NCBI GenBank assembly: GCA_009846005.1
Contig: VXYL01000075.1
Coordinates: 26,053 to 63,763 of the forward strand
Length of the DNA: 37,711 nt
Source of the DNA: Gammaproteobacteria bacterium
Lineage (GTDB): Bacteria > Pseudomonadota > Gammaproteobacteria > Pseudomonadales > Azotimanducaceae
Direction of reading: 5' to 3'
Of this stretch, positions 6,452-22,611 are shown piece after piece. Position 1 is the stretch's first letter. Each line of letters begins with the position of its first letter. The notes below the pieces were generated by a model. The model ran no database searches, had not been told where the DNA came from, and saw nothing but the letters and a program-made list of their open reading frames with translations. The position numbers were made by a program, and so were the translations under genes.

Positions 6452-6493
6452 GACCGTGTCGGCCCGGCCCCTGGGGTCGAACCGTTCGACCGT

Positions 6494-7183
6494 TCAGGCG
6501 GTTCTGAGACCCGCATCAAGTCCTTCGAGTACCTCTGAAATGGAGGGACCCCGCAACGACTGTTTGACCGCAGCGTAGGCGGCGCCGTCGAGTTCCACCA
6601 TTGCGCGGGCGCGTTTCTGCGCGGTTTCCAGAATCTCGTCGGCGGCAACCACTTCGTCGAGGAATCCCGCGTCGGTGGCTTCCGCTGGCGAGAACATCGT
6701 GGCCGCGATCGTGGCGCGGCTGAGGTAGCGTTTGGAGAGCCGTTCCTTGGCGAGCATGAGTCCGAACGGCGGCAGGCTCATGCCGATGGCGGTCTCGTTC
6801 AGTTGAATGCGGAAGTCGCCGTGGGTGCCTAGGCGGTAATCGCCCGTCAGGAGGCAGAACGCGCCCAGGGCGACCGCGTGTCCGGTGGCGGCGATCACCA
6901 GCGGTTGCGGGTGGCCGTAGAGGCGCATCATCAACCGCGCACCGCCGAGGGTCATCTCGCGCGAGGCCTTCGGGTCGTCGCCGCGAATGACCCGCAGGTC
7001 GAACCCGCCGGAGAAAAGGCCCGGGCGGCCGGCCAGCACGGTGGCTTTCGCCTCGGCCTCGGCGCGGTCGAGTCGCTCGTTCACCGCGGCGATCATGTTC
7101 GGGCCGAAGGCGTTGGCCTTGCCGTCGTTCATGACGATCACCGCGACATGATCGATGAGTTCGTAGGTCGTGAATTCGGACAT
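6494..7183 (-). CDS. Crotonase / enoyl-CoA hydratase family protein
   Basis: 229 aa, ATG at 7183 with GGGAGG 6 nt upstream. Crotonase-fold features are the oxyanion-hole segments FSGGFDLRVI (near 58-67) and GHAVALGAFCLLTGDYRLG (near 102-120), then NETAIGMSLPPFG. The two glutamates of a true enoyl-CoA hydratase are not both obvious: the second oxyanion loop reads ALGAFCLLTGD, so the exact reaction (hydration, isomerisation, dehydration or thioester hydrolysis) is open. The gene is divergent from a BCCT transporter across a 96-bp gap. That pairing recalls carnitine use (transporter plus a CaiD-like crotonase), but no CoA-transferase or ligase is present, so this is only a suggestion. Confidence 0.8.
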   Translation of the reverse strand: MSEFTTYELIDHVAVIVMNDGKANAFGPNMIAAVNERLDRAEAEAKATVLAGRPGLFSGGFDLRVIRGDDPKASREMTLGGARLMMRLYGHPQPLVIAATGHAVALGAFCLLTGDYRLGTHGDFRIQLNETAIGMSLPPFGLMLAKERLSKRYLSRATIAATMFSPAEATDAGFLDEVVAADEILETAQKRARAMVELDGAAYAAVKQSLRGPSISEVLEGLDAGLRTA

Positions 7184-7279
7184 CGTCGCCTCCCGGAAAA
7201 CGGGCAGTTTACAACGCGCCTCGCCAAGGCCGTGCGGCGCGTTAACATGGCGACAGCACACGGGGGAACGGGTGGGCGT

Positions 7280-8773
7280 ATGAAGCCGCGGGTCGACTGG
7301 GTACTGTTCACCGCCAGCGCCGGACTGATCATCGCCGTCTGCATTCCGATGGCGCTCGCACCCGAACGATCCTCCGAGGTCGTCGGTGCGATGTACAAGT
7401 GGATCGCCGGCGACGTGGGTCTGGTCTACCAGTGGATGGTGGTCGTCTCCACGGTTGTGCTCGCGGTCATCGCGCTGCGCAAGACCGGTGGTCGTCGCCT
7501 TGGGGGGGACGACGCCGCGAAGGAGTTCTCCGACCTGTCCTGGATGTCGATGCTGTTCTGCGCCGGCATCGGTGCCGGCATCATGTATTGGGCGACCATC
7601 GAGTGGGCATACTATCTCGACCAGCCGCCGTTCGGCGCCGAGCCCGGTTCGGCGGAAGCGCAGGAGTGGGCCGCGACCTACGGCATTTTCCACTGGGGGT
7701 TGTCGGCGTGGTGCCTTTACTGCCTGCCGACCGTGGCGATCGCCTATCCGTACTATCAGCGGAAGATTCCCTACCTCCGGCTCTCCACGGCGCTGACGGG
7801 TCTCTTCGGCGACGACATCGCCAACCGTCCGCTGGGCCGGGTCGTCGACTTCATCTTCATTATCGCCCTGGTCGGCGGCACGGGAACGTCGCTCGGGCTC
7901 GCAACGCCGATGCTGGCAGCCTGCGTCGCGAAGCTGTTCGGCATCGAGCAGACGGCCTTGCTGGAGTACGCCGTCGTGCTGCTGGCGGTGGCGCTCTTCG
8001 CGTACAGCGTGTTCCGCGGCCTCACCAAGGGCATTAAGGTCTTGAGCGACATCAACATGACGGTCGCCGGTGCATTCGCGCTGTTCGTGCTGTTCACGGG
8101 GCCCACGCTTTTTGCGTTGAAGCACGGCACCAACAGCCTGGGTCTGATGGTTCAGGACTTCATCCGTCTCAACACCTGGACCGATCCGGTGCTCAAGACG
8201 AACTTCGTCGAGGACTGGAGCATCTTCTACTGGGCCTGGTGGCTCGCCTACGGGCCGTACATGGGGATCTTCGTCACCCGGATCTCGCGGGGGCGAACCT
8301 TGCGGGAGTTGATCTTCGGGATGGTCGGCTTCGGCACGGTGGGGTGCGCACTGTTCTACATCACGATCGGCAACACGGCCATGTGGATGGACCTGGAGGG
8401 TCTCGTGCCGGCGCGGGAGCTCGTTGCCGCCGGCCAGGCGGAGCAGGCGATCGCCAGCGTCATGGCTGCGATTCCCTGGCAGCCGTTGCCGCTCATCGCC
8501 TTCATACTGGTGACGTTCATCTTCGTGACGACGACCTACGACTCGGCGTCCTACGCGATTTCCGCCTCGGCGACGCGGCAGTTGCAGGCCGGCCAGAATC
8601 CCGCGCGTTGGCATCGGGTGTTCTGGGCATTCGCATTGGCCGTGCTGCCGCTTGCGCTGATGTTCCTGGGCGGGCTGGACGCGATCAAGTCGTCGGTGCT
8701 CGTGGTGTCGCTGCCGCTGCTGGTGATCGGCGTGGCGATGATCGTGTCGCTGTTTCGGACGTTGCGCGAGTAG
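7280..8773 (+). CDS. BCCT-family betaine/carnitine/choline transporter
   Basis: 497 aa, about 12 membrane segments, inner membrane. The family signature is clear: WSIFYWAWWLAYGPYMGIFVTRISRGRTLREL spans the conserved tryptophan-rich helix and the RISRGRT loop (about residues 315-346), and the glycine-rich helix reads GIGAGIMYW with WATIEWAYY after it. These carriers import quaternary ammonium compounds such as glycine betaine, choline or carnitine, driven by sodium or protons or by exchange. The GIGAGIMYW helix is closer to the carnitine/exchanger style than to BetP (weak inference). There is no long C-terminal osmosensing tail. ATG 7280 is chosen because hydrophobic sequence begins soon after; an upstream in-frame ATG at 7247 would add 11 residues. 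Confidence 0.92.
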   Translation: MKPRVDWVLFTASAGLIIAVCIPMALAPERSSEVVGAMYKWIAGDVGLVYQWMVVVSTVVLAVIALRKTGGRRLGGDDAAKEFSDLSWMSMLFCAGIGAGIMYWATIEWAYYLDQPPFGAEPGSAEAQEWAATYGIFHWGLSAWCLYCLPTVAIAYPYYQRKIPYLRLSTALTGLFGDDIANRPLGRVVDFIFIIALVGGTGTSLGLATPMLAACVAKLFGIEQTALLEYAVVLLAVALFAYSVFRGLTKGIKVLSDINMTVAGAFALFVLFTGPTLFALKHGTNSLGLMVQDFIRLNTWTDPVLKTNFVEDWSIFYWAWWLAYGPYMGIFVTRISRGRTLRELIFGMVGFGTVGCALFYITIGNTAMWMDLEGLVPARELVAAGQAEQAIASVMAAIPWQPLPLIAFILVTFIFVTTTYDSASYAISASATRQLQAGQNPARWHRVFWAFALAVLPLALMFLGGLDAIKSSVLVVSLPLLVIGVAMIVSLFRTLRE

Positions 8774-8781
8774 TCAGGAGC

Positions 8782-8966
8782 GGGCGACCACAAGGGTCGC
8801 CCCTACGAGACCTCGGCGTAGCAGAACAAACCGTAGGGGACGGGCCTGTCCCGTCCCGGCGCGCCCTACGGGGCACAATCGAGAATGCTGGCGCATTCTC
8901 GTACGAGCGGACCAACGCTGCAGACTCGGCGGGCCGCCACAAGGGTCGCCCCGGGGTCGCCCCTAC
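8782..8966. repeat. Composite REP-like element between BCCT and protease genes
   Basis: Contains an inverted type B palindrome (8782-8806), a type A palindrome with one loop change (8833-8857), a module C palindrome GAGAATGC/GCATTCTC (8881-8904), and a duplicated inverted type B end (8933-8966). The last copy supplies the TAG stop codon of the protease gene on the minus strand. No gene is supported between 8774 and 8962. Confidence 0.75.
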
Positions 8967-9340
8967 GCTCGATAGAGGGGCGCGTCGGGGCTCGCGGGAT
9001 TCACCGTCACCGTACCGAGCTTGGGGTTGACCACGAGGTCCATGTCTTCCATGGGCACCGCGCCTAGGCGCACCTCATTGCCCATCACCAAGGCACCGAC
9101 GAAACAGGTCCGGTTGCCGAACCGAACTTGCACCGGGCCGACGTAGGGCACCGAGGCTCGCCTGCCGTCCGCGACCTCGACGTTGCGCATGGACTCGAGT
9201 TCAACGCCCAGTTGCTGTGCGACGCCATCGGGAACACAGAGCATCATCGACCCGGTATCTGCCCGTGCGTTGACGACCACAGGCTGCTGTCTCGGTTCAC
9301 GCGGGTTGCTGAGTTCGACTTCGGTGACAACGGAGCCCAT
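8963..9340 (-). CDS. Retropepsin-like clan AA aspartic protease
   Basis: 125 aa from ATG 9340. The active-site motif is ADTGS (D28-T29-G30) after strand VVVNAR, followed by the LGVE, GRRASVPYVGPVQV and ALVMGNEVRLGAVPMEDMDLVV segments that complete a single retropepsin lobe. Proteins of this kind are expected to act as homodimers, each chain giving one aspartate. There is no signal peptide or membrane segment, so it is probably cytoplasmic. It starts 14 bp after the second of two tandem small membrane-protein genes, suggesting one operon. The stop TAG (8963-8965) lies in the first bases of a type B repeat, so the last codons end exactly at the repeat edge. Substrate unknown. Confidence 0.75.
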   Translation of the reverse strand: MGSVVTEVELSNPREPRQQPVVVNARADTGSMMLCVPDGVAQQLGVELESMRNVEVADGRRASVPYVGPVQVRFGNRTCFVGALVMGNEVRLGAVPMEDMDLVVNPKLGTVTVNPASPDAPLYRA

Positions 9341-9354
9341 GGCGTTCCCCCGGT

Positions 9355-9570
9355 CTAAGCGGCTGGCTCGGTTCGGGCACGACCCGTGAACCCTTCGAAC
9401 AGACCTTCTAGCCGCGCCATCCGCTCGCGAAGATCCGCAACGTCGCTGCGCACATCCTGCATCTCGACACGGATGTCATGCATTTCGACGCGAACGGCGC
9501 GCAACCCGGTCAGCATCAGCCCCGCAAGTGCAACGCCGACGGCAAGGACGGCGATCAGTTCAGCGCTCAT
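9355..9570 (-). CDS. Small membrane coiled-coil protein, copy 2
   Basis: 71 aa. Residues 3-23 are one hydrophobic helix (ELIAVLAVGVALAGLMLTGL), followed by a charged coiled coil (about 25-62) ending ADLRERMARLEGLFEGF. ATG 9570 overlaps the stop of copy 1 as ATGA, so translation is probably coupled. About three quarters identical to copy 1, with a longer heptad region (an extra EMQDVRSD block). The protease gene begins 14 bp downstream. Small proteins of this design are common in bacterial genomes; I know of no function for them. Confidence 0.65.
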   Translation of the reverse strand: MSAELIAVLAVGVALAGLMLTGLRAVRVEMHDIRVEMQDVRSDVADLRERMARLEGLFEGFTGRARTEPAA

Positions 9571-9782
9571 CGCGCCAACGGTCCAGGTACTGCCGAGGGT
9601 TCGGATCGAGTACGGCCCGTGAACCCTTCGAACAGGCCTTCTAGCCGCGCCATCCGCTCGCGAAGATCACCCACGTCGTTCCGCAGGTCATGCACTTCGA
9701 CACGAACAGCGCGCAGACCGGTCAGCATCAGTCCCGCCAAGGCCACCCCAACCGAAATCACGGCGATCAGTTCAGCACTCAT
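9567..9782 (-). CDS. Small membrane coiled-coil protein, copy 1
   Basis: 71 aa from ATG 9782 with GGGAG 8 nt upstream. One membrane helix (residues 3-23), then a coiled coil with DLRERMARLEGLFEGFTGR, the same block as in copy 2. Its C-terminal tail (SAVPGPLAR) differs from copy 2. First gene of a three-gene minus-strand operon with copy 2 and the protease. The two copies clearly arose by tandem duplication: the DNA at 9386-9420 and 9623-9660 is nearly identical. A cytoplasmic coiled coil anchored in the inner membrane is likely; function unknown. Confidence 0.65.
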   Translation of the reverse strand: MSAELIAVISVGVALAGLMLTGLRAVRVEVHDLRNDVGDLRERMARLEGLFEGFTGRTRSEPSAVPGPLAR

Positions 9783-12290: not shown

Positions 12291-13934
12291 TCACCGGGAA
12301 GGGCGACTCAATAGTTCGACAATCTCTGCCGTCGAGTCGTCGCGGGCGATGTCGATGAGCGATCGTCCCTCGCTATCGGCAACGTCCACGCGCGCGCCGC
12401 GATCAAGCAGTAGCCTCGCTGCCGCGACCCGTCGCCGCAGCACGGCGAAGGCCAGCGGCGTCTGCCAGTCCGCTTCGTGGGCTTCATCGCCGCCTCGCTC
12501 GGCGCCGATCGTCGATTCGAGCAACGACGGATCGTCGTCCAAAAGCGAACCCAAGCGATCCAGATCCTCCGCCACCACCGCGTCGAACACGCCGATGGGC
12601 AGGTTCTTGAGATAGTCGGCGACGTCAGAGCTACCTGCGGTCAGCGCCCATTGAAGCGGGGTTGCCGCGTGGTGGTTGTCGCGGACGCTCAACGACGCGC
12701 CCTTCCCGAGCAGCAACTCCACCATGGCCCGGTGACCTTGGAACGCGGCCTGGTGCAGCGGTGCGACATCGGCAACCCTCCCTAGGTCGAATCCCAACTC
12801 CGCCATCAGTCGAACCGCCTCCACGCGGTTCCCCCCGGCGGCATCGACCACGAGATCGGGCTCCGCTTGCTGCACCCGCTCGATCAGTCCGGGATTGTCG
12901 TGGACCAACTGCCGCGCGGTGTCGGCATCGCCCGCCTGGCATGCGCCGATCAAACGTGCCGAGACGTCGAGTTCCGCTGCCTCGGCACCGCGCTCCGCCA
13001 GGTAGCGGGCGAGATCGGGATGTCCCGCCCGCACGGCCGCCTCAAAGAGCGTCTTGCCGTCCGGCGTGCGTCCCGTGGCGTCGGCGCCGTGGTCGAGGAG
13101 GAGCTTCGCCCGGTCGACGTGGTGCTTCTGCACGGCCCAGTTCAACTGGTAGTCGAGGGTTCGGTCCGGGTTGTCGTTGTATACGCCGTCTTCGGCCGCC
13201 CAGCGCCAGTTGTTCCGGTGTTCATGGGTCAAGCCATGGTCGAGGAGCATGGCGAGACACTCGTGACCCGGGGTGAACATGGTGTTGTAGAGCGCCTGGC
13301 TGTCGTTCGGGTCGGCACCGGCATCGAGCAGCAAGCCTGCGAGCGCCACGCATTGCTCGTGCGCGGGCTGGTTGACCGGACCCATCTCGCCTTCGCCGAA
13401 TGCGCCCGTCAGCGCGGTGAAACGGTACTGCCCGCTCCACATGTAGTGGCTGTCCGGGTCGGCGCCGCGCTCGATCAGGAGGCCCGCAACGCCGAGCGTC
13501 GAACGATTCGGGAGATTGAGGCGCGAGTAGCAGGCGTAGAGCAGCGGCTCCCAATCGAAGTACCCGCCACGTCGATTGACCAAGGCCGGCTCCGCGTCGA
13601 GAAGCCGCGCCACGGTCGCCACGTCGCCAACGCACGCCGCATGCCAGATGTCGCGGGAGGCGAGGCCGGGATCGTCTGCGAGCATCGCACGGGCGCGTTC
13701 GACGTTCTCCGGCCGGTCGGTCTGGAAATACGTCAGACAACTGAGCAATAGGAAGTCCGAGTGGTCCCCCGGGTGCGTCACGTGGGCTTCGATCTGGCGC
13801 CAGGAGGCGAATCCATATTCCGTCGCAACGGCCAACCTTGCATCGGCCTGCGAGACGTTGTCGCGTTTCTGGCAGGACGCCACCCGGGAATGCACCTTGC
13901 GCAATGATTCGCCCCAGGGCAGTTGCTTCGGCAT
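12291..13934 (-). CDS. Ankyrin-repeat protein
   Basis: 547 aa from ATG 13934. The N-terminal NVSQADARLAVATEYGFASWRQIEAHV block (residues 26-52) is the short leader seen in many bacterial ankyrin proteins. At least eight ankyrin-type units follow; good ones read LLLDHGADATGRTPDGKTLFEAAVRAGHPDLARYL, PLHQAAFQGHRAMVELLLGKGASLSVRD and AARLLLDRGARVDVADSEGRSLIDIA. There is no signal peptide or membrane helix, so it is probably a cytoplasmic protein-binding scaffold. Partner unknown. It is divergent from the exported TldD-like pair across 171 bp. Such proteins are frequent in host-associated bacteria, but this does not prove symbiosis. Confidence 0.85.
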   Translation of the reverse strand: MPKQLPWGESLRKVHSRVASCQKRDNVSQADARLAVATEYGFASWRQIEAHVTHPGDHSDFLLLSCLTYFQTDRPENVERARAMLADDPGLASRDIWHAACVGDVATVARLLDAEPALVNRRGGYFDWEPLLYACYSRLNLPNRSTLGVAGLLIERGADPDSHYMWSGQYRFTALTGAFGEGEMGPVNQPAHEQCVALAGLLLDAGADPNDSQALYNTMFTPGHECLAMLLDHGLTHEHRNNWRWAAEDGVYNDNPDRTLDYQLNWAVQKHHVDRAKLLLDHGADATGRTPDGKTLFEAAVRAGHPDLARYLAERGAEAAELDVSARLIGACQAGDADTARQLVHDNPGLIERVQQAEPDLVVDAAGGNRVEAVRLMAELGFDLGRVADVAPLHQAAFQGHRAMVELLLGKGASLSVRDNHHAATPLQWALTAGSSDVADYLKNLPIGVFDAVVAEDLDRLGSLLDDDPSLLESTIGAERGGDEAHEADWQTPLAFAVLRRRVAAARLLLDRGARVDVADSEGRSLIDIARDDSTAEIVELLSRPSR

Positions 13935-14105
13935 CGGTCATCCGTCCCCGCGGAAGGTTCTCGAAGGCACTAATGTACATCCGCTGCAACATCGCGTTCG
14001 ACGCGTCGATCCAAGCCCCTTCCGCCAACGCGCCATCGGTTTACACGGGCGATGATTCTGCTACGCTCTTAGCACTTCGTGGTGACGCTCAAAGGGAGGC
14101 TCGTC

Positions 14106-15824
14106 ATGGGCGAGAGCGACTATTCGAAGGCACCGCGCGCGGCGTGGATCTGTCTGATCGGGATGGGCCTCGTCGCGGTATGTGCCGCTGCGGAGAGCAG
14201 CATGCTCAAGGCCATGAAAGCGGAACTCGACCGGTCCATGGAGGTGTTTGGCGAGCAGCCGGTACCGCCTTATTTTCTGAGCTACGAGATTACCGAGACG
14301 AAAGGAATCTCGGCCGGGGCGCAGTTCGGCGCACTGGTGTTCAGCAATGACGCCCGCGGGCGCGTACTCGACATCGATCTGCGCGTCGGCGACTACGGGC
14401 TCGACAACACCCGTCCGCTGCGCGGCCAAGGCGGATTCTCGTTCTTCGGCACCGATATGGTCGTCGCACCGGTCGAGGATGACGTCGATGCGATTCGCGC
14501 CCTGCTCTGGCACGAAACCGACAAGCGCTACAAGCGGGCGCTGGAGGAACTCACCACCGTCAGGACCGATGTGCAGGTGACGGTGGAGGCCGAAGACAAG
14601 GCCGGCGACTTCTCCCGCGAGGAACCCTCCAAGGGCATGGAAGCCGAACGGCCGATCGAGGTCGATCTCGCAGAATGGGAGCGGAAAGTCCAAGACTACA
14701 CGGCACCGTTCGCCCGTTACGGTGATTTCTACGACGCCAGGGCGTCGTTCTCCGCCAATGTCGAGACGCGTTGGTTCGTGAACAGCGACGGCTCGGAGAT
14801 CCAGACCTCCGAGACGCTCTACCGGTTGTTCATCTCGGCCAGCACAAAAGCCGACGACGGCATGGTGCTGCCCCTCTACAAGAGCTACATCGCGCTGACA
14901 CCCGAAAGCCTGCCGGACGATGAAACCGTGGCAGGTGATGTCGCGAATATGGTCGAAACCCTGCTCGCGCTGCGCGACGCGCCGCTCGTGGAACCGTATA
15001 CGGGGCCGGCGATCCTCTCCGGCGAGGCCAGCGGCGTGTTCTTCCACGAGATCCTGGGACACCGCCTCGAAGGGCATCGCCAAAAGCTCGAAGACGAGGG
15101 CCAGACCTTCAAGAAACTGCTCAACGAGCGGGTCTTGCCGACGAACTTCTCGGTGCACTTCGACCCCACGACATCGCGCCATGGCGGCACCGATCTCGTG
15201 GGTACGTACCGGTTCGACAACCAGGGAATTCCGGCACGCCGGGTCACCGTCATCGACAAGGGGATCTTGAAGGCATTCCTGCTGTCGCGCCGACCCATCG
15301 ACGGCTTCCCGAAATCCAACGGCCACGGACGCAAGCAGGCGGGCTTCAAGCCGGTCGCACGGCAATCCAACCTGATCGTCGAAGTCACCGATCCGCTCAC
15401 CGTCGACGAACTGAAGGGGGAGTTGCTCGCCGCGATCGAAGCCGAGGGCAAGCCGTTCGGACTGCGTTTCGCGGCCATTCAAGGCGGGTTCACGACGACC
15501 GGCCGGTTCATGCCGAACTCGTTCAACGTGACGCCGCTGGTCGTCTACCGCGTCTACCCGGACGGCCGCGAGGAACTGGTTCGGGGCGTCGATCTGATCG
15601 GCACGCCGCTCACCACCTTCAGCCGGGTGGCAGCGGGGGACGACCAGATCGCGGTGTTCAACGGCACCTGCGGCGCGGAATCGGGCGGTGTCCCGGTTTC
15701 CGCCGCGTCGCCCGGCATCCTGGTATCCCAGATCGAGGTGCAGAAGAAGGACAAATCGCAGGATCGCCCACCGCTGCTTCCGGCGCCCCTCGGGGATGAC
15801 CGTCTGGGCTTTTCGGTGTACTAG
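14106..15824 (+). CDS. Exported TldD-like zinc metallopeptidase
   Basis: 572 aa from ATG 14106, chosen because AAAGGGAGG lies 6 nt upstream and a signal peptide follows (KAPRAAWICLIGMGLVAVCAAAE). An in-frame GTG at 14079 would add 9 residues. The TldD/PmbA signature HEXXXH is present as HEILGHRLEGH near residue 315, and a conserved CG (NGTCGAESGGVP, near 525) supplies the likely third zinc ligand. Cytoplasmic TldD of E. coli works with TldE as a heterodimeric protease that degrades unfolded peptides. Here both partners have export signals, so this is a periplasmic or secreted version. The partner gene follows after 9 bp. The metal site looks intact. Confidence 0.85.
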   Translation: MGESDYSKAPRAAWICLIGMGLVAVCAAAESSMLKAMKAELDRSMEVFGEQPVPPYFLSYEITETKGISAGAQFGALVFSNDARGRVLDIDLRVGDYGLDNTRPLRGQGGFSFFGTDMVVAPVEDDVDAIRALLWHETDKRYKRALEELTTVRTDVQVTVEAEDKAGDFSREEPSKGMEAERPIEVDLAEWERKVQDYTAPFARYGDFYDARASFSANVETRWFVNSDGSEIQTSETLYRLFISASTKADDGMVLPLYKSYIALTPESLPDDETVAGDVANMVETLLALRDAPLVEPYTGPAILSGEASGVFFHEILGHRLEGHRQKLEDEGQTFKKLLNERVLPTNFSVHFDPTTSRHGGTDLVGTYRFDNQGIPARRVTVIDKGILKAFLLSRRPIDGFPKSNGHGRKQAGFKPVARQSNLIVEVTDPLTVDELKGELLAAIEAEGKPFGLRFAAIQGGFTTTGRFMPNSFNVTPLVVYRVYPDGREELVRGVDLIGTPLTTFSRVAAGDDQIAVFNGTCGAESGGVPVSAASPGILVSQIEVQKKDKSQDRPPLLPAPLGDDRLGFSVY

Positions 15825-15833
15825 GGAGGAGCT

Positions 15834-17591
15834 ATGAAGAACACCACACGCCCGTTCCCCACCTTCGCCGGCACCGTCGCGCTGGCGCTACTCGTCCCCA
15901 CCGCACACGCGGATGAAGACGTCCTGATCCAGGCCATGCGCGATGAGCTTGCCCGCACCATGAACGAACTCCGCATGGAGGACATGGACGAACCCTACTT
16001 CGTGGCCTACACCGTTCGCGACACCGAGCTTGTTTCGGCCGGTGCCAGTTTCGGGGCGTTGCTTCCGAGTTCGACGAGCCGGTCCCGGCGGCTCGGCGTT
16101 GAACTGCGGGTCGGCGATGCGTCGTTCGACAACACCAACTTCCGCGGTTTGGGTTTCTTCGGCGGCAGCGGCAGTGCGAGCCTGCCGCTGACGGACGACG
16201 CGGTCGAGATTCGCCGGCAGATCTGGTTGGCCACCGACAACGCCTACAAGAACGCGCTCAAGCAGATCGCTGCCAAGCGCGCGGCGCTGCAGAACGCAAC
16301 CCGGGTCGAGGATCTCGGCGATCTGTCCCCCCAGGAACCCTATGAGTACGCCGAGGAACCGGGCCGGGAACTGCCCGAGTTAGCCGACGTCGAGGCTCTG
16401 GTCCGCGACCTCTCCAATCGGTTCCGAGACATGCCGCACGTCATGGATTCCAGGGTCGGAGCCCGCATAAGCCGGGGTCGCACCGTGTACGTGAACAGCG
16501 AGGGTTCTACCTTTGTCCGATCCAATCCGGCAGCGCATTTGACAGTGACCGCGCAGACGCAAGCCGACGACGGCGCGATGCTGCACGATTTCCGCGCCGT
16601 CTACGCGAACGGTTGGGACGACATCGTCGAACGCGGCGACCTCGCCGCCGAGGTCGACGCCTTGGGTGCCGCCATCGCCGAACGGCGTTCGGCGTCGCAA
16701 CTCAAGGACCGCTACATCGGCCCGGTGCTGTTCGAAGGCCAAGCCGCTGCCGAGCTGACCGCCCAGGTGCTGCTGCCGAGGCTCCGCGGCGTACGTGCAC
16801 CCGAGACCGAGCGTCGATTCTCCATGCGGGGCTCGGGCAATCCCTTCCAGGACAAGCTCGGCGCCCGGGTCCTGCCGCGTTTTCTGAGTCTCACCGATGA
16901 CGCAACGCTCACCGGCAACGGTTTCGTGAGCGGCTACCCCGTCGACGACGAGGGCGTTCCCGCGCAGCCTACCCGTCTGGTGGAGAACGGCATCCTGAAA
17001 ACCCTCCTCACGACCCGAAATCCGGTTCGGGGCGTCGACGGCAGCACGGGAAACCGCCGTGGCAGCGGGCCGCAGCCGAGCAACCTCGTAGTGACCAACA
17101 GACGCGGCATGACGCGCGGGGAACTCTACGATGAGCTCAGGCTCTTGATGGAGGAACGCGAAGCCGAGTACGGCATTGTCGTCCGCCGCCTCGGCAACCC
17201 TGGCCTGAGGCCAGCGGCGGGTGGGCGTTTTTCGATCAGTCTCGGCGGCGCCGGCGCGGGCCAAAGCAATGTCGCAAACGCCTTGGTCGCCTACAAGGTC
17301 TACGCGGACGGACGCGAGGAACTGCTGCGCACGGTCGAGTTCGCCGGGATCGCCGATTCGGTATTCAAGGAAATCGTGGCGGCATCGGCGTCGAACACCA
17401 CCTACACCCGTGCGGGTTCGTCGGGTTTCGCCAGCGGCCTCGTGATGATGGTTGGAATGACGCCAGCATCGGGAGGGACGACCGTGACGCTATCCGTGCC
17501 CGACCTTCTGTTCGAGGAAATGAGCGTGCGAAATCCGACCGGAAACCTGCCGCATCCGCCGGTGGCGAATCATCCGTTCTTCGAGGAGTGA
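15834..17591 (+). CDS. Exported TldE/PmbA-like partner lacking the zinc site
   Basis: 585 aa from ATG 15834 with GGGAGGAG just upstream and a signal peptide (FAGTVALALLVPTAHA). It aligns along its length with the preceding gene (AGASFGALLPSS, RVGDASFDNT, NPVRGVDGSTGNRRGSG, VYADGREELLRTVEF), but the HEXXXH position reads EGQAAAELTAQVL and the cysteine ligand is gone. That matches TldE, the non-metal-binding half of the TldD/TldE pair. The two genes therefore probably form an exported heterodimer. The C terminus ends PHPPVANHPFFEE. A degenerate copy of this end lies at 22437-22496, past the next operon. Confidence 0.82.
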   Translation: MKNTTRPFPTFAGTVALALLVPTAHADEDVLIQAMRDELARTMNELRMEDMDEPYFVAYTVRDTELVSAGASFGALLPSSTSRSRRLGVELRVGDASFDNTNFRGLGFFGGSGSASLPLTDDAVEIRRQIWLATDNAYKNALKQIAAKRAALQNATRVEDLGDLSPQEPYEYAEEPGRELPELADVEALVRDLSNRFRDMPHVMDSRVGARISRGRTVYVNSEGSTFVRSNPAAHLTVTAQTQADDGAMLHDFRAVYANGWDDIVERGDLAAEVDALGAAIAERRSASQLKDRYIGPVLFEGQAAAELTAQVLLPRLRGVRAPETERRFSMRGSGNPFQDKLGARVLPRFLSLTDDATLTGNGFVSGYPVDDEGVPAQPTRLVENGILKTLLTTRNPVRGVDGSTGNRRGSGPQPSNLVVTNRRGMTRGELYDELRLLMEEREAEYGIVVRRLGNPGLRPAAGGRFSISLGGAGAGQSNVANALVAYKVYADGREELLRTVEFAGIADSVFKEIVAASASNTTYTRAGSSGFASGLVMMVGMTPASGGTTVTLSVPDLLFEEMSVRNPTGNLPHPPVANHPFFEE

Positions 17592-17704
17592 ACGACGCTG
17601 TAGATTCACCGCCAAGATGCACCTGAGGTGCCTTTGCCAAGTGCACCTTGGTCTCCGTCGACAAGATGACAGGCTGGTCCGCAGTGGTCCGCCAGCCAGT
17701 CCTC

Positions 17705-18574
17705 TTACCCTCCATCGATGGTGATCGGCTCTGGCCAAGGATCGCTGCGAACCGTATACGCGCCGAACATGCCTTCGATGAGCTTGTCGTGGGCCTGCTG
17801 CCACCGTGCCTTGGCGTGGCGTGACGTCAGGTCCCAAACGCGTACCCAGAACACGCAGGAATAGCTTCGCACGCGCTTCGACTTCCCCGCCTCGTGGATG
17901 GGATTGAGGTGCCTGACGACCTGGGCGTCCGTCAGGCGCACGTCATAGGGGATTGCGCCGAATCCCAAGCGCTCGGCTTCGCCGGCGAAGCTGCCGCCGT
18001 TGTCGTCGGCTGCGCCACCCGGGGGCGTCACCGCCCGGCGCACCACGATCGCGTCGTCGAACACGCCGAGGTTGAACGAGTAGTAGGGCTTCTCGCGGGT
18101 GCCGTCGCCGTCCGCTCGCGGCACCACCCGATACCAGCAGGGAGGGTTGTGGCCCTTGGCGCGGAACACCCGCAGTTCCTCCATGGCCTCCTCGGCTCGG
18201 CGTTCGGCCTCCTGAGCCACCCGCACCGCCTCGGCTGCGCCGCCATCCTCCTTGGCCAGCACGTCGCGAAGCGCTTCATTCTGTCGTCGGTGCCTCTCGG
18301 CTGCTTGCTCGGCACGTTCCTTGTCGCGCTTTAGCGTCACGACTTCGTCCGGCGTTTCGAACTCCTCGGTCACCGGACGCCACTCCTCCAGGGCGACCAG
18401 TTCATCGCGCAGTTCCTGGGCAGCCGCAGTCTCCGACTCGCGCTTGCGCTCCCAGCTCTGGGCTAGGGCGAGGAACGCCAACAGGATCAGAAACAGCAGG
18501 AGGATAAAGATCTCGGCCATGGTCAATCCCAAGACCGTTCCGCGCCGATAGGCAGCGTCGGGCCCGGCTGTCAA
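17705..18574 (-). CDS. MotB/ZorB-like single-helix membrane protein with novel C-terminal domain
   Basis: 289 aa. TTG 18574 overlaps the upstream stop as TTGA, and DAAYRRGTVLGLT before the first ATG looks conserved, so the TTG start is preferred; ATG 18520 is the alternative. One membrane helix (residues 20-38, AEIFILLLFLILLAFLAL) begins with acidic E21. In MotB, ExbD and ZorB an aspartate at that place carries protons, so Glu21 may play the same part (inference). Residues 40-140 are a coiled coil rich in ERAEQAAERHRRQ. The C-terminal 145 residues (CWYRVVPRADG...YYSFNLGVFDDAIVV...LTDAQVVRHLNPIHEAG...CVFWVRVWDLT) are a globular, probably periplasmic domain that I do not recognise; it is not an obvious OmpA peptidoglycan-binding domain. 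Last gene of a four-gene operon. Confidence 0.7.
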   Translation of the reverse strand: MTAGPDAAYRRGTVLGLTMAEIFILLLFLILLAFLALAQSWERKRESETAAAQELRDELVALEEWRPVTEEFETPDEVVTLKRDKERAEQAAERHRRQNEALRDVLAKEDGGAAEAVRVAQEAERRAEEAMEELRVFRAKGHNPPCWYRVVPRADGDGTREKPYYSFNLGVFDDAIVVRRAVTPPGGAADDNGGSFAGEAERLGFGAIPYDVRLTDAQVVRHLNPIHEAGKSKRVRSYSCVFWVRVWDLTSRHAKARWQQAHDKLIEGMFGAYTVRSDPWPEPITIDGG

Positions 18575-20142
18575 CGCACCGATCCGGTGCCGCCCGACAT
18601 CGGCGACTCGGGTTCCTGCATTGAAGCGGAGCGACGCCGGCGCCAGCTTCCGGTTGGTCTGTCGTCCGCTTCCGTTGGAGACGCGAGGTCGTCGGAGACG
18701 CCCGTCGCCGTCTCCCGCACCGCCCCGTCCCCACCACTGGCGGCGGAACCTTGGACAACGGACACCGCGGGAACATTCGCCGCAAGTTCCTTCACGGCCT
18801 CGACGGCGTCACCGAGGGCGTCTCGCAACGGCGCCGCCTCGTCAGTCCACGACTGCACCTCGCGGGCGGCCAACTCGGTCAGGGCGTTGGTTGTTTCCGT
18901 GTTCCGATCCGCGGCGTCCTGCTGTCGGACGATGGCGAGGTTGAGTTGCTCGATTGCCGTCGGCAGTGCCTTGCCGACCGCTTCCAGCTCGCGAGCCGTT
19001 CCGGCAAAGTCATCGATGCTGCGGCGCAGCGCATCCAATCCGTCCTCCTGGTACTTCCTGACGTTTTCGGCCAACGCCCGATGTCCCTCGACGATGCCGG
19101 CGACGCGGCTGTCGAGATCGCCGGCAATCGACGTCGCGGTGTCACCGAGCGCTTGCACGCGACCGTGCGCCAACGCCAGGTTGCCGGCGAAGGACGACAG
19201 GCCCTCGTTGATCGCGGCGAGCTGGTGGACGATCGCGGCGACCGCCGCCGCCGTTCGCTGCACGTCCTCCCTCGTCGACTCCGCGGCTGCCTGCGCATCG
19301 TCGGCCAGACCGCGCCAGGCCGTCTCGGCCCGGCTTGTCGCATCGCCGATCGCGTGGTCGAACCGCTCCACGACCTTCGCAGCCTGCGATCCTACGTTTT
19401 CAGCCGTTTCCTGCCAGGCAGCCGCCGTGGCGCTCAGACCGGCTTGCGCCTGCTCGCGCGCCGTCGATTCGAGTTCCCGCCAAGCCGCCGCCGTGCTACG
19501 CAGGCGCGCCTGGCCGACCTTCTCGAGGCGCTCGTTGAACTCCTGCGACAGCACTTCCGTGTGGGTCTTCGTCTGATCGGCCTGGGTCAGAGTCATCCGG
19601 GTGAAATGGGAGAAGGCGTTCCTGGCTTCCCGCAACTCATCGCGCAACGCCCGCATGGATTCCGCGAACTCGGCGTGGAGGGCTTGGTCCCCGAGGCCGG
19701 CACCGTGCACGGGCGCCTCTGGTCCTGTCGGCGGGCGTTCGTCGAGCTCTGCCTCTCTGGCAGGGTCTTTGGAGCGGTCTTGCAGGAGGATGCGACCGAC
19801 GATGCCGGCAACGGTCGAGAACAGCGCGATGCCGAAGTTGCCGATGAGCCCATGGGTGCGTGCCTCGAGTTCCTCGCTGGGGTTCCAGACGAACAACTGC
19901 CATAGCGCGATGCTGAGCGACACCAACGTGAAGAGCAGGCCGAGGTAGTAGAGGTCGTCCCCGGCCTGGTTCGAATCGACGTCGGCTTGCTTCCAGTAGT
20001 AGATGCCCAAGACCGTGATAGCGGCGATCGCCGCCACGACGGCGACAACTGCCCCGGCCAACCCCGAAACAAGCCACCGCGACAGCAGGATTGCCAATAC
20101 GCCGGTGCCCAAGGCGGTCAGGAACGGTTGCTTGCCGCCCAC
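18571..20142 (-). CDS. MotA/ZorA-like four-helix membrane protein with long coiled-coil tail
   Basis: 523 aa from GTG 20142, which overlaps the upstream TAG by one base (TAGTG) with AGGAG 8 nt before. Membrane segments are near residues 8-22, 25-47, 64-84 (LYYLGLLFTLVSLSIALWQLF) and 98-120 (GLIGNFGIALFSTVAGIVGRIL). The last two resemble the pore helices of MotA/TolQ/ExbB/ZorA channels, including a mid-helix threonine (T110). Residues 170-470 are a long alanine-rich, mostly coiled-coil tail (AAAWRELESTAREQAQ, TSRAETAWRGLADDAQ and similar), as in ZorA. The tail would project into the cytoplasm. The C terminus is disordered. With the next gene it is proposed to form an ion-driven stator. No direct family match is claimed; an ordinary structural coiled-coil membrane protein is the alternative. 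Confidence 0.65.
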   Translation of the reverse strand: MGGKQPFLTALGTGVLAILLSRWLVSGLAGAVVAVVAAIAAITVLGIYYWKQADVDSNQAGDDLYYLGLLFTLVSLSIALWQLFVWNPSEELEARTHGLIGNFGIALFSTVAGIVGRILLQDRSKDPAREAELDERPPTGPEAPVHGAGLGDQALHAEFAESMRALRDELREARNAFSHFTRMTLTQADQTKTHTEVLSQEFNERLEKVGQARLRSTAAAWRELESTAREQAQAGLSATAAAWQETAENVGSQAAKVVERFDHAIGDATSRAETAWRGLADDAQAAAESTREDVQRTAAAVAAIVHQLAAINEGLSSFAGNLALAHGRVQALGDTATSIAGDLDSRVAGIVEGHRALAENVRKYQEDGLDALRRSIDDFAGTARELEAVGKALPTAIEQLNLAIVRQQDAADRNTETTNALTELAAREVQSWTDEAAPLRDALGDAVEAVKELAANVPAVSVVQGSAASGGDGAVRETATGVSDDLASPTEADDRPTGSWRRRRSASMQEPESPMSGGTGSVR

Positions 20143-20918
20143 TACACCGACTCCTGCCAGATGACCTCGCCCCCTAGGGATTGCACGAGCTTGGTCCACC
20201 AGTAGTAGTGGTCCCTGGTCTGCCACCGCGCATCGCGGCTGCGTTCGAGCCGATACAGACTCGCCTCCACGCCCGTGAGGTCGACCTTGAGATGCCGGAG
20301 TCCGGCCGTTCTGCCAACCGCTTCCGCCGCCGGGTGGGGACCGTAGTGGGAAAGGTCGTCGGAGTGCTGCAGCAGGTCCGAGTAGACGATGAGGTGGGTC
20401 CGCGTCTTTGATTCCATGCGCGAGCTCGGCACATGCCGGGGGACGACCACCCCGAGGAACTCGATGATCGGCGAGCGCGACTGCGCGGACGAGCCCGTCG
20501 CCGCGAAGAGCGGCTCAACGCTCTCCTGGAATCGCTGCCAGCGGCGCAACGCGATGGCCTTGCCCTCGGTGAGTTCGCGCTTCCAAGTCCAGTCGTCGGG
20601 CCGGTCGCCGGGATTGCAGACGCGTATCCGAGGTTCGACTTGGGCGAGATCCTGCGTCAGCTCGTAGACGACCAGCGCGTCCCCCGGGCGGATGCGGAAG
20701 TCCGGCGGGCCATCGGGTTCCTGAAGTTCCTTCACCAGCCTCGCGAAGACCTCGCGCTGCTTGGGATTCAGCGGATCAGAGGTGTCCAGCAGGAGGACAG
20801 TGGTGCGCGCCGGTGTCTGTCCCACCGGACAGAGGTTCTCGTCGAGCCGGACGCGGTCGCAAGCCGCGAGGGCGAAAACGAGCGAGACGGCCGCGAGACC
20901 GAAGCGCGCGCCCGTCAC
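20142..20918 (-). CDS. Inner-membrane lipoprotein with VWA-like segments
   Basis: 258 aa from GTG 20918 (GTGA overlap with the upstream stop). A lipoprotein signal ends in LAAC|D near residue 19; aspartate at +2 is the classic inner-membrane retention signal in enterobacteria. The mature part has the alternating strands of a VWA-like or related Rossmann domain: TTVLLLDTSDPLNPKQREVF with a D-x-S that could be a partial MIDAS, then ALVVYELTQDL, SPIIEFLGVVV and THLIVYSDLLQHSDDLSHY with a possible metal-binding aspartate. It probably faces the periplasm, tethered beside the membrane partners encoded on either side. No better family match known to me; the VWA call is a guess from pattern. Confidence 0.6.
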   Translation of the reverse strand: MTGARFGLAAVSLVFALAACDRVRLDENLCPVGQTPARTTVLLLDTSDPLNPKQREVFARLVKELQEPDGPPDFRIRPGDALVVYELTQDLAQVEPRIRVCNPGDRPDDWTWKRELTEGKAIALRRWQRFQESVEPLFAATGSSAQSRSPIIEFLGVVVPRHVPSSRMESKTRTHLIVYSDLLQHSDDLSHYGPHPAAEAVGRTAGLRHLKVDLTGVEASLYRLERSRDARWQTRDHYYWWTKLVQSLGGEVIWQESV

Positions 20919-22372
20919 GCGTCGCGCCCGTCGCTGTCAAGCTCCTCGAGCGTCGGGTACCTGCGAGCGGCTTTGCCGTATTCGTCCTGGAGTTCCTCGA
21001 TGGCACCGTGGACATGTTCCATGACGTCGTTGAGCATCGTCGGCGGCGGAGGATTGAAAGCGGGCGGGGTGTTGATAACGTCCGCATCGACGCACACACG
21101 CGCCTCGAAGTGTCGCGGTGCCGGTTCTGTTCGCGCAGTCCGATTGGCTGTTCGGTATTCTTCGATGAGATGATCCAGATCGTGGGGGTACTGGCCCAGG
21201 TTCAGCCTGTAGTCGTCGACCAAGTGCTGCCCCCGAACACAGATGTCCTTCCACGCGCTCTGCTTGATCTTGAGCTTCTCCCGGCGATCCTCAAGCTTCG
21301 ACGCGAATTCGTCGTGTTCGTTCTTGAGGTCGCGCCGCGCCGTATCGAAGCGTTCGATGTAGCCATCTCGCAGCGACTGCAATTGGCGATGTCGGCGACC
21401 GTAGTCCGGATACGAATCGTCGCGTTGTAGCCACTTCCACGATGCGATGCAGAAGAACACGAACCCGAGCAACGCGAGCAGATATGACTGGAACGAATCG
21501 AGGGCCGCCGCGTTCGCCAGGAAGCGGTCCACGACATCAGTTCCCAATGCGAGCACATCGGCACTGGGATCATTGACGACTGCCTGCATGCTATCTCTGA
21601 AGTGGCCGATCGCCAGGTTGAACGCGACGGTCGTCCCCAGCAGGAAGGCGATGCCGATCCACGCGAGCGACCGGCGTAGCAGGGCCACGTGGTTGCGTTG
21701 GCGCAGCAGGAAGCCCATGGCCATGCCTGCGGCGAATATGTTCACGAAGCTGATGAGCGCCATCTGGATGCTCGAGCCCACCAGGCCGAATGCATTGACC
21801 TCCATCAACAGCGTCGCGTTCAGAACGATCTCGACGACGAAGCACGTGAGAATCACAGGCAGGGACCACCGGCGATGGGAGTAGTCGGCCTGCCGCGTCA
21901 GGCGCGCCCGGCGTCGAAACGCCCGAAAATCGGCGGTGTCCTCCCGCACCGCTTCCTTGGCTGCCAGGAGCAAATGCCCGCCCTGCTCCACCTGCCCGCC
22001 TAGCGCCAATCGGCCGTTTCTGCCCAGTTCGCTCACCTCCAGCTTTAGGTCCTCTAGATCCCGGTCGCTCTCCATGTCGACAAGCTCCCGTTCGAGGTCG
22101 GCTAGATGGTCACTCACATTGCGGCGGCAGATCCGGGCGCGGCGGTTTACCCAGGCGCGGATTCTCTCCTCTGTGGCATCCAAGCCGTCGGTTTCGGGTG
22201 CCGGCAGGTTCGCCGCGCCTTGGCGACGACCCTCCTCTCGCACAGCATGTTTGGATAGCCATGCTTCGAGGTCGAGCTGGACGTAGCGTTCCTTGACCTC
22301 GTCGAAGCCGGGTTCGTTGTCCCAGTCCACCTGGTGTCCTTGCCACGATCTGGCGGCCAAGCATAGCAGCAC
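20915..22372 (-). CDS. Four-helix membrane protein with N- and C-terminal coiled coils
   Basis: 485 aa from GTG 22372 (GGAGG 7 nt upstream). GTG 22330, with AAGGA 6 nt upstream, is a good alternative, so the start is uncertain; the open frame to 22564 runs into repeat DNA and is not coding. Residues 15-165 are charged and helical (WDNEPGFDEVKERYVQLDLEAWL; HLADLERELVDMESDRD). Four membrane segments follow near 170-190, 200-222, 235-255 and 293-313; the first pair carries an acidic and Asn-containing stretch (VEIVLNATLLMEV, GLVGSSIQMALISFVNIF). The C-terminal 160 residues are coiled coil, then a Pro-rich tail. First gene of the operon; each downstream junction overlaps by 1-4 nt. Family not named. 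Confidence 0.65.
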   Translation of the reverse strand: MLLCLAARSWQGHQVDWDNEPGFDEVKERYVQLDLEAWLSKHAVREEGRRQGAANLPAPETDGLDATEERIRAWVNRRARICRRNVSDHLADLERELVDMESDRDLEDLKLEVSELGRNGRLALGGQVEQGGHLLLAAKEAVREDTADFRAFRRRARLTRQADYSHRRWSLPVILTCFVVEIVLNATLLMEVNAFGLVGSSIQMALISFVNIFAAGMAMGFLLRQRNHVALLRRSLAWIGIAFLLGTTVAFNLAIGHFRDSMQAVVNDPSADVLALGTDVVDRFLANAAALDSFQSYLLALLGFVFFCIASWKWLQRDDSYPDYGRRHRQLQSLRDGYIERFDTARRDLKNEHDEFASKLEDRREKLKIKQSAWKDICVRGQHLVDDYRLNLGQYPHDLDHLIEEYRTANRTARTEPAPRHFEARVCVDADVINTPPAFNPPPPTMLNDVMEHVHGAIEELQDEYGKAARRYPTLEELDSDGRDA

Positions 22373-22436
22373 CACTGTCCCTCCAAGCCGAGGGAGCGTC
22401 GACGAACTCCGCGTCCCGGATGCGGGTCTCGGTTCG

Positions 22437-22496
22437 CCGGGTCCAACCGGAAGCCCGCCGCCTCCGGTGGCGGAGCATGCGTTCTTCGATGAGTAG
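22437..22496 (+). pseudogene. Remnant of a TldE-like gene 3' end
   Basis: The frame ending GPTGSPPPPVAEHAFFDE-stop (TAG 22494-22496) matches the last residues of the exported TldE-like protein (NPTGNLPHPPVANHPFFEE-stop). Over the final 36 nt about 29 bases agree with 17556-17591, and a 3-nt gap extends the match upstream. Before about 22437 the similarity fades and the frame has no recognisable TldD/E sequence. It looks like the tail of a lost paralogue. It lies just upstream of the minus-strand membrane operon. Confidence 0.5.
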
Positions 22497-22524
22497 GCTT
22501 CCCGCGGCAGTCCCATACCCACCG

Positions 22525-22611
22525 GCGGGACGGGACAAGCCCAAGCGGGACGGGACAAGCCCAAGCGGGACGGGACAAGCCCAAGCGGGACGGGACAAGC
22601 CCGTCCCCTAC
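22525..22611. repeat. Four tandem type A REP arms
   Basis: Three 20-bp units (GCGGGACGGGACAAGCCCAA, starting at 22525, 22545 and 22565) are followed by a complete inverted type A palindrome (22585-22611). Only the last unit retains the CCGTCCCCTAC arm. The complete copy supplies the TAG stop of the S46 peptidase gene. It lies between the operon start and that gene's 3' end. Confidence 0.75.

Follow-up and report, generated by a model that had tools for sequence, protein, structure and literature searches.

The window analysed here, a stretch of 37,711 nucleotides (nt) from a gammaproteobacterium of the family Azotimanducaceae (assembly GCA_009846005.1, contig VXYL01000075.1), contains an operon of four minus-strand genes, which will be referred to as A, B, C and D in the order of their transcription. 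We read the operon as a mobile defence motor acting at the cell envelope, with a probability of roughly 0.55. The products of C and D very likely form an ion-driven stator of the ZorAB/MotAB kind, as judged from conserved residues and a structure model, with a predicted 5:2 stoichiometry of the two subunits. This assignment is based on the likeness of the C model to type II ZorA, on the matches of distant D proteins to ZorB and on the invariance of the glutamate in the D helix and of the pore residues in C. The features concerned are as follows.

Gene A, 20915..22372, minus strand: 485 amino acids (aa); soluble N-terminal part, four transmembrane (TM) helices by eye, coiled-coil C-terminal part; the start codon (22372) is uncertain.
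Gene B, 20142..20918, minus strand: 258 aa; predicted periplasmic protein with the lipobox LAAC|D; resembles VWA by eye, D45, S47, S149 and D181 being MIDAS-like.
Gene C, 18571..20142, minus strand: 523 aa; putative ZorA/MotA-like pore subunit with four membrane helices and a cytoplasmic tail of ~400 residues, largely coiled coil.
Pore helix TM3 of C (residues 57-86), 19885..19974, minus strand: D62, Y65, Y66, G68, T72, L73, S75 and L76 identical in 30/30 proteins.
Pore helix TM4 of C (residues 92-124), 19771..19869, minus strand: F103, G104, S109, T110, G113 and R117 identical in 30/30 proteins.
Gene D, 17705..18574, minus strand: 289 aa; putative ZorB/MotB-like subunit with one TM helix, a coiled coil and a C-terminal, predicted periplasmic PCW domain.
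Codon of Glu21 of D, 18512..18514, minus strand: inside the TM helix; kept in 36/36 D proteins.
PCW domain of D (residues 140-281, with KGxNPPCWY), 17732..18157, minus strand: replaces the OmpA-like domain of other D proteins.
Cassette interval, 17592..22607, unstranded: from the 3′ end of a tldD-like gene to that of an S46 peptidase gene.

The four proteins are conserved and the order A-B-C-D recurs, which indicates that they are encoded by true genes and not by chance open reading frames (ORFs). An earlier note on this stretch, made from the sequence alone, had described four overlapping minus-strand genes, and the ORF coordinates confirmed the overlaps GTGA (A ends at 20915, B starts at 20918), TAGTG (end of B and start of C at 20142) and TTGA (C ends at 18571, D starts at 18574). 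Compared to the nearest relative, identities were 94 % for B, 86 % for A, 78 % for C and 90 % for D, and compared to the next two relatives 59-69 % for B, 51-56 % for A, 34-40 % for C and 53-60 % for D. The complete order was found in 34 non-redundant loci with differing surroundings, of which one is the window itself, 12 are near relatives and 21 distant ones. The genes are thus kept together in other genomes, which the note had proposed as a test, though A and B also occur without C and D in seven fetched loci.

For C, a model of residues 1-215 obtained with AlphaFold2 (AF2; mean predicted local distance difference test (pLDDT) 75.7, predicted TM-score (pTM) 0.52) showed helices at residues 5-24, 28-51, 57-86 and 92-124, followed by a further helix at 151-214; the tail extends ~400 residues past TM4. 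The 400-residue tail and the pore pair (57-86 and 92-124) had been recognized in the note, whereas the number of helices had to be corrected from two to four. Fifteen core positions, including T72, S75, S109, T110, G113 and R117, were identical in all 30 C proteins. A Thr in both pore helices is likewise present in MotAB, ExbBD and TolQR. Foldseek comparison of the C core with 8vvi_C, the type II ZorA of Sulfuricurvum kujiense, yielded a probability of 0.99 and a target TM-score of 0.74 at an E-value of 0.53, and the superposition with this 99-residue chain gave 2.6 Å over 92 columns; chains of ExbB and TolQ took ranks 2-5 with poor superposition. The structural similarity to a stator, for which the note had asked, is consistent with its proposal that the last two genes form one; this comparison concerns the single C subunit. 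A profile restricted to the TM region of C retrieved only EccD5 from the PDB sequences, at 0.2, and was discarded. The own genome (G000) contains seven other MotA_ExbB-family matches above the Pfam cut-off, four of them of the TolQ/ExbB type by eye, and hence possesses ordinary stators as well.

Glu21 of D was kept in 36/36 D proteins, as the note had required for its proposal. The motif (G/S)(L/F)Tx(A/T)E including this Glu was present in 35 of them, and in the remaining protein (L114) the Glu was aligned by eye. The single helix described earlier was found again; its Glu had been placed at the membrane edge, but by eye it sits ~8 residues inside the hydrophobic stretch. The topology by eye, with YRRG ahead of the helix and a long coiled coil and a domain after it, fits a stator subunit. 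The TM region of window D matched ZorB weakly in PADLOC (0.0043), and the D proteins of L053 and L056 matched ZorB2 at 1.4e-27 and 3.9e-27, respectively, over their OmpA-like domain. The latter protein also matched 8vvi_A at 9.4e-11, which in the solved type II ZorAB structure is the B-type chain accompanying 8vvi_C. At the C-terminus two different domains were observed. In 19 of the 36 D proteins, including that of the window, it is the PCW domain, named for (P/S)(P/S)CW, in which C146 and C240 are invariant among all 15 near-clade proteins and which is alpha/beta in the D model, mostly with pLDDT > 70. The other 17 carry an OmpA-like domain by motif, in some cases backed by Pfam or PADLOC; all 17 belong to the 21 distant D proteins. 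In a fold search with the D model, nothing in the PDB was matched at E ≤ 0.001, and no meaningful match emerged. That PCW is a degenerate OmpA domain was rejected, as hhalign gave a probability of 0.13 % and the reversed control 2.6 %.

Distribution of the operon was analysed at several levels. Within the host genus, gene B was present in 4 of 16 genomes (counting that of the window), and the same search gave no match in 42 other relatives of the family and order. All four genes stand in the window's order in the three other genus genomes, of which one also has the flanks of the window and two have other flanks. A scan of 84,980 species genomes with two peptide patterns derived from the D alignment, which misses distant D forms, yielded 15 loci (L013-L027) from metagenome-assembled genomes (MAGs) of Gammaproteobacteria/Pseudomonadales and from one Candidatus Binatia MAG. 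Twelve of these contain all four genes in order, L017 and L018 start with B-C-D at the contig start, and L024, which consists of a D fragment only, was left out of the counts. No fifth conserved neighbour was found in the window's clade besides genes common to sister genomes or to single pairs. The D profile matched 11 of 398 Pseudomonadota genomes, the window's own among them; eight of the other ten were fetched, and six of the eight (L051-L056) contain A-B-C-D in order, whereas L057 and L058, with weak D matches and without A, B or C, were dropped.

The A protein detected 24 plasmid records from five alphaproteobacterial genera by tblastn, 15 of them conjugative or mobilizable, and all nine records fetched carry A-B-C-D. 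In PLSDB, A and B are labelled 'hypothetical protein' (one A 'DMT transporter'), C 'hypothetical' or 'methyl-accepting chemotaxis protein' and D 'OmpA family protein' or 'hypothetical'. The A profile matched 14 of 385 genomes in the class of G648 and 6 of 369 in the class of the window, own genome included. These searches provided 16 new loci, with A-B-C-D complete in L097-L100, L102, L103 and L114; L098 appears to be a record of L081 (Tistrella pTM3) and was counted once, L101 ends after C and L115 after A. The re-fetched neighbourhoods L119 and L120 stand outside these 16, and G588, G479 and G767 were matched but not fetched. For P0001 the plasmid search was empty, and among 274 genomes of the class only the own genome was found. 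A ParA-like ATPase (by eye) lies directly upstream of the A gene of L115 (2927-3982), at the contig end.

At the position of the window operon, two same-genus genomes (G003 and G010) have an empty site, the distance between the 3′ ends of the flanking tldD-like gene and S46 gene being ~0.56 or 0.82 kb there compared to 5.0 kb in the window; this comparison rests on two of eight operon-free genomes, the other six being uninformative without an S46 match at E ≤ 1e-100. Patchy occurrence in the genus, variable flanks, empty sites and carriage on plasmids indicate that A-B-C-D is a mobile unit. The cassette is bordered by two direct copies of a 40-nt sequence (17550-17589 and 22455-22494; 83 % identity). 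The copy on the left coincides with the 3′ terminus of the tldD-like gene, and that on the right corresponds to the tldD terminus in L121, a genome with an empty site. This repeat may mark the route of insertion; it was not detected in L006, the sister locus.

A nuclease forms part of D or is encoded within 2 kb of the operon in 14 of the 21 distant loci. Pfam detected an SNase domain behind the OmpA-like domain of D in L056 (2.3e-13), L097 (3.4e-13) and L103 (3.5e-5), and a GmrSD_C/HNH domain at the same place in L053 (2.3e-11). Stand-alone SNase-family genes occur ≤2 kb from the operon in ten loci (L051, L052, L054, L055, L074, L077, L078, L079, L080 and L082), separated from it by one gene in L055 and L082, and by eye several of the encoded proteins have an N-terminus like a signal peptide. 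To control for chance, PF00565 was searched in 13 whole genomes of distant carriers, which are partly related and so not fully independent: of 35 matches found, at least one lay in D or ≤2 kb away in 7 of the 13 genomes, whereas 0.06 would be expected from random placement. In L055 a DUF4236 protein (6452-7651), the start of which overlaps the D stop, is followed by the convergent SNase gene.

A is a protein with four TM helices by eye and long coiled coils, much as the earlier note had described it, with a conserved HxRD and, in most cases, a (D)PYPGYG-like motif. No Pfam or NCBIfam family was found for A above cut-off, and its best PADLOC match was PbeC at 0.01; B matched no Pfam, NCBIfam or PDB family. 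The lipobox at the N-terminus of window B is as reported earlier and serves as membrane anchor; it is not universal, a lipobox pattern in the first 60 residues being found in 7 of 15 near-clade B proteins, and those of L025-L027 have a TM-like stretch without Cys (by eye). The VWA-like look noted for B holds by eye, since its motifs LLLDTSDP, SP(I/L)(I/L)E and SDLLQHS resemble VWA/MIDAS and D45xS47, S149 and D181 are conserved, but none of the 15 B proteins has a VWA match in Pfam. In L027 a second, divergent B-like protein (8877-9746; 29 % identity to window B) is encoded directly downstream of D.

These data can be combined in a working model. Five copies of C would surround two D helices, and Glu21 of D would carry an ion against the ring of C Ser/Thr residues (T72, S75, S109 and T110), so that a proton or sodium gradient could drive C5D2. 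The long C tail would hang into the cytoplasm, and the periplasmic domain of D, PCW here and OmpA-like in most distant relatives, may anchor the motor to the cell wall or to a periplasmic partner. B, membrane-anchored and periplasmic, and the four-helix protein A might detect a disturbance of the envelope and gate or transmit the motor action, with entry of phage or plasmid DNA unlocking ion flow through C5D2. In many distant relatives a predicted periplasmic nuclease tied to the motor would then cut DNA on its way into the cell; candidates for the effector of the window's clade are the PCW domain, the tail of C and some protein encoded elsewhere. We infer ion conduction, the 5:2 assembly, sensing by A and B and the role against phages or plasmids, and function can only be inferred because no SNase was found in the window's clade (0/13 loci) and A and B occur without C and D. 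We tentatively propose that the system might represent a new immune machine, i.e. a C5D2 rotary motor gated by a VWA-like and a four-helix protein, the periplasmic arm of which wields a nuclease on DNA crossing the envelope, with a PCW effector instead in the window form.

Known 5:2 motors power flagella, gliding, type 9 secretion, Ton/Tol and Zorya. A-D would add a family of this class with conserved partners of its own, an invariant Glu for Asp and an axle subunit that is repeatedly fused to a nuclease on the predicted periplasmic side. The DNA-acting effectors of Zorya are taken to be cytoplasmic; if A-D is a defence system, such motors would also act on DNA outside the cytoplasm. Motor subunit and nuclease being one polypeptide in some species, the contribution of the motor could be tested directly. 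Among the systems closest to A-D is type II Zorya (ZorA-ZorB-ZorE), in which a compact ZorA membrane core of ~100 residues is likewise followed by a long cytoplasmic tail, ZorB has one acidic TM helix and an OmpA-like domain as in most distant D proteins, and an HNH-type nuclease (ZorE) belongs to the system, HNH being fused to D in L053. The ZorAB core with a long ZorA tail is also shared with types I and III. In Zorya the equivalent position of the motor is taken by an Asp (D24 or D21) that packs onto Ser/Thr residues of ZorA, and the ion-coupling Asp (D24), the peptidoglycan-binding domain and the ZorA tail are all required for defence (PMC11890865). A-D differs from type II in the Glu that stands for this Asp, in its two additional conserved genes A and B and in the nuclease, which, if present, is mostly an SNase and predicted to be periplasmic, either past the TM helix and OmpA domain of D or secreted-looking. 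Although C has the long cytoplasmic C-terminal extension of a ZorA, window D gave no OmpA match in Pfam and carries PCW in place of the OmpA-like peptidoglycan-binding domain of ZorB. Among the nine genes flanking the window operon PADLOC found no match at E ≤ 0.01 to the models for ZorC/ZorD, ZorE or ZorF/ZorG, in agreement with the earlier view that this is not Zorya as defined, and neither ZorC/ZorD nor ZorF/ZorG is named among the annotated neighbours of the plasmid relatives.

With MotAB, ExbBD and TolQR (Pfam MotA_ExbB) the operon shares the pair of genes for a pore and a single-helix subunit with an acidic TM residue; it differs in that there is no significant sequence match, that the first two C helices run almost straight into TM3 and that the long domain is C-terminal. 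Diverse 'generic ion transporters' are described in a survey of MotAB relatives, the available part of which does not describe the A-D gene set (PMC12505986). A full-text search of open-licence PMC papers likewise found no description of the operon, which is not proof of novelty. SNIPE, a membrane-tethered anti-phage nuclease composed of DUF4041 and GIY-YIG, resembles the distant A-D systems in placing a nuclease at the envelope, the site of DNA entry, but has another fold and no motor. At L082, in Sinorhizobium fredii, a DUF4041 + T5orf172 protein (12995-14470), which we take to be of SNIPE-like architecture, adjoins the thermonuclease gene near the operon.

Several findings weigh against a defence motor, and part of them concern the stator itself. 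Pfam MotA_ExbB misses window C and scores the C protein of L056 at 0.031. The best ZorA match of window C in PADLOC (ZorA1, 4e-6) covers residues 285-456 in the coiled-coil tail, one at 7e-4 falling on the helices; the Foldseek match to 8vvi_C, with its E-value of 0.53, takes rank 10, and no match passes 0.001. When the C core was compared by hhalign with one set of four ExbB/TolQ-like proteins of the own genome and two ZorA sets, probabilities of 0.8, 0.3 and 1.7 % were obtained (reversed controls 0.1, 0.2 and 2.9 %), which is not significant; the best matches to ExbB and one ZorA set were in register on the GTV/GTF motif. C and D might thus be membrane-anchored coiled-coil proteins that only resemble a stator, the more so as coiled coil accounts for much of the signal obtained with PADLOC and with PDB sequences. 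We regard this as very unlikely in view of the match of the C model to type II ZorA, the ZorB-class matches of the D relatives, the invariant acidic TM residue and the Ser/Thr invariant in both pore helices. A and B, moreover, occur without recognizable C or D in seven fetched loci (L104, L105, L106, L107, L116, L117 and L118; the L107 sequence covers only 3.1 kb past B). They are therefore a separable module and not obligate stator partners, and might even be a general sensor or scaffold that joins various machines, C+D being one, with conjugation or DNA transfer as its main job. In L117 (1061-4945) A and B are followed by a gene that overlaps the end of B and whose product resembles, by eye, a conjugation coupling protein of the VirD4/TraG kind, C and D being absent. 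This context is a single case named by eye, and C+D follow A+B in 9 of the 16 A-profile genomes with fetched contigs past B (two of the nine were first found through D; the own genome, contigs ending after A or C and one unfetched genome were left out), so that we consider such a general role improbable.

The remaining findings bear on defence as the function of the motor. The window operon is surrounded by housekeeping-type genes (tldD-like, S46 peptidase and holA), and it does not lie in a visible defence island, since PADLOC found no known defence system among the nine flanking genes. Relatives were absent from the viral and phage collections searched. No fused or nearby nuclease was found in 7 of the 21 distant loci (L075, L076, L081, L099, L100, L102 and L114), L100 having only a short SNase-like remnant near the operon. 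In the near clade, an SNase-like ORF near the operon was found in none of 13 complete loci, the window included (SNase model only; the HNH model was not run), and none of the 15 D proteins matched a nuclease family in Pfam; the nuclease argument consequently extends to the window by descent alone. A motor of the 5:2 type without an immune role, i.e. one acting in upkeep or remodelling of the envelope or in transport as for TolQR/ExbBD, with the nuclease of the relatives scavenging extracellular DNA, would be compatible with the genes around the window operon, the OmpA-like domain that 17 of the 21 distant D proteins carry, the secreted look of the SNase neighbours and the seven other MotA/ExbB-family matches in the own genome. 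It accords poorly with the very patchy occurrence in the genus (4/16), with varying insertion sites, empty sites and plasmid carriage, and with two nuclease folds being fused at the same end of D, a pattern more readily explained by the exchange of effectors in a defence system than by an unchanging task in the envelope. We thus hold a non-immune role to be rather unlikely and prefer the mobile defence motor.

The flanks of the operon in the window consist of a pair of tldD-like genes on one side and the S46 peptidase gene on the other. The former are two adjoining tldD/pmbA-like genes on the plus strand (14079-17591), both with Pfam PmbA_TldD_3rd and ~30 % identical to each other's L006 counterpart. 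Two genes past this pair, a protein encoded at 12291-13934 matches the PADLOC candidate-defence model PDC-M72A (3.3e-19). A tandem repeat of a G+C-rich 20-nt sequence, GCGGGACGGGACAAGCCCAA, occupies 22525-22604 in the spacer that separates gene A from the S46 peptidase gene. A similar trace of this repeat at the peptide level was seen by eye in locus L030 of the own genome, and it may represent a dispersed intergenic repeat.

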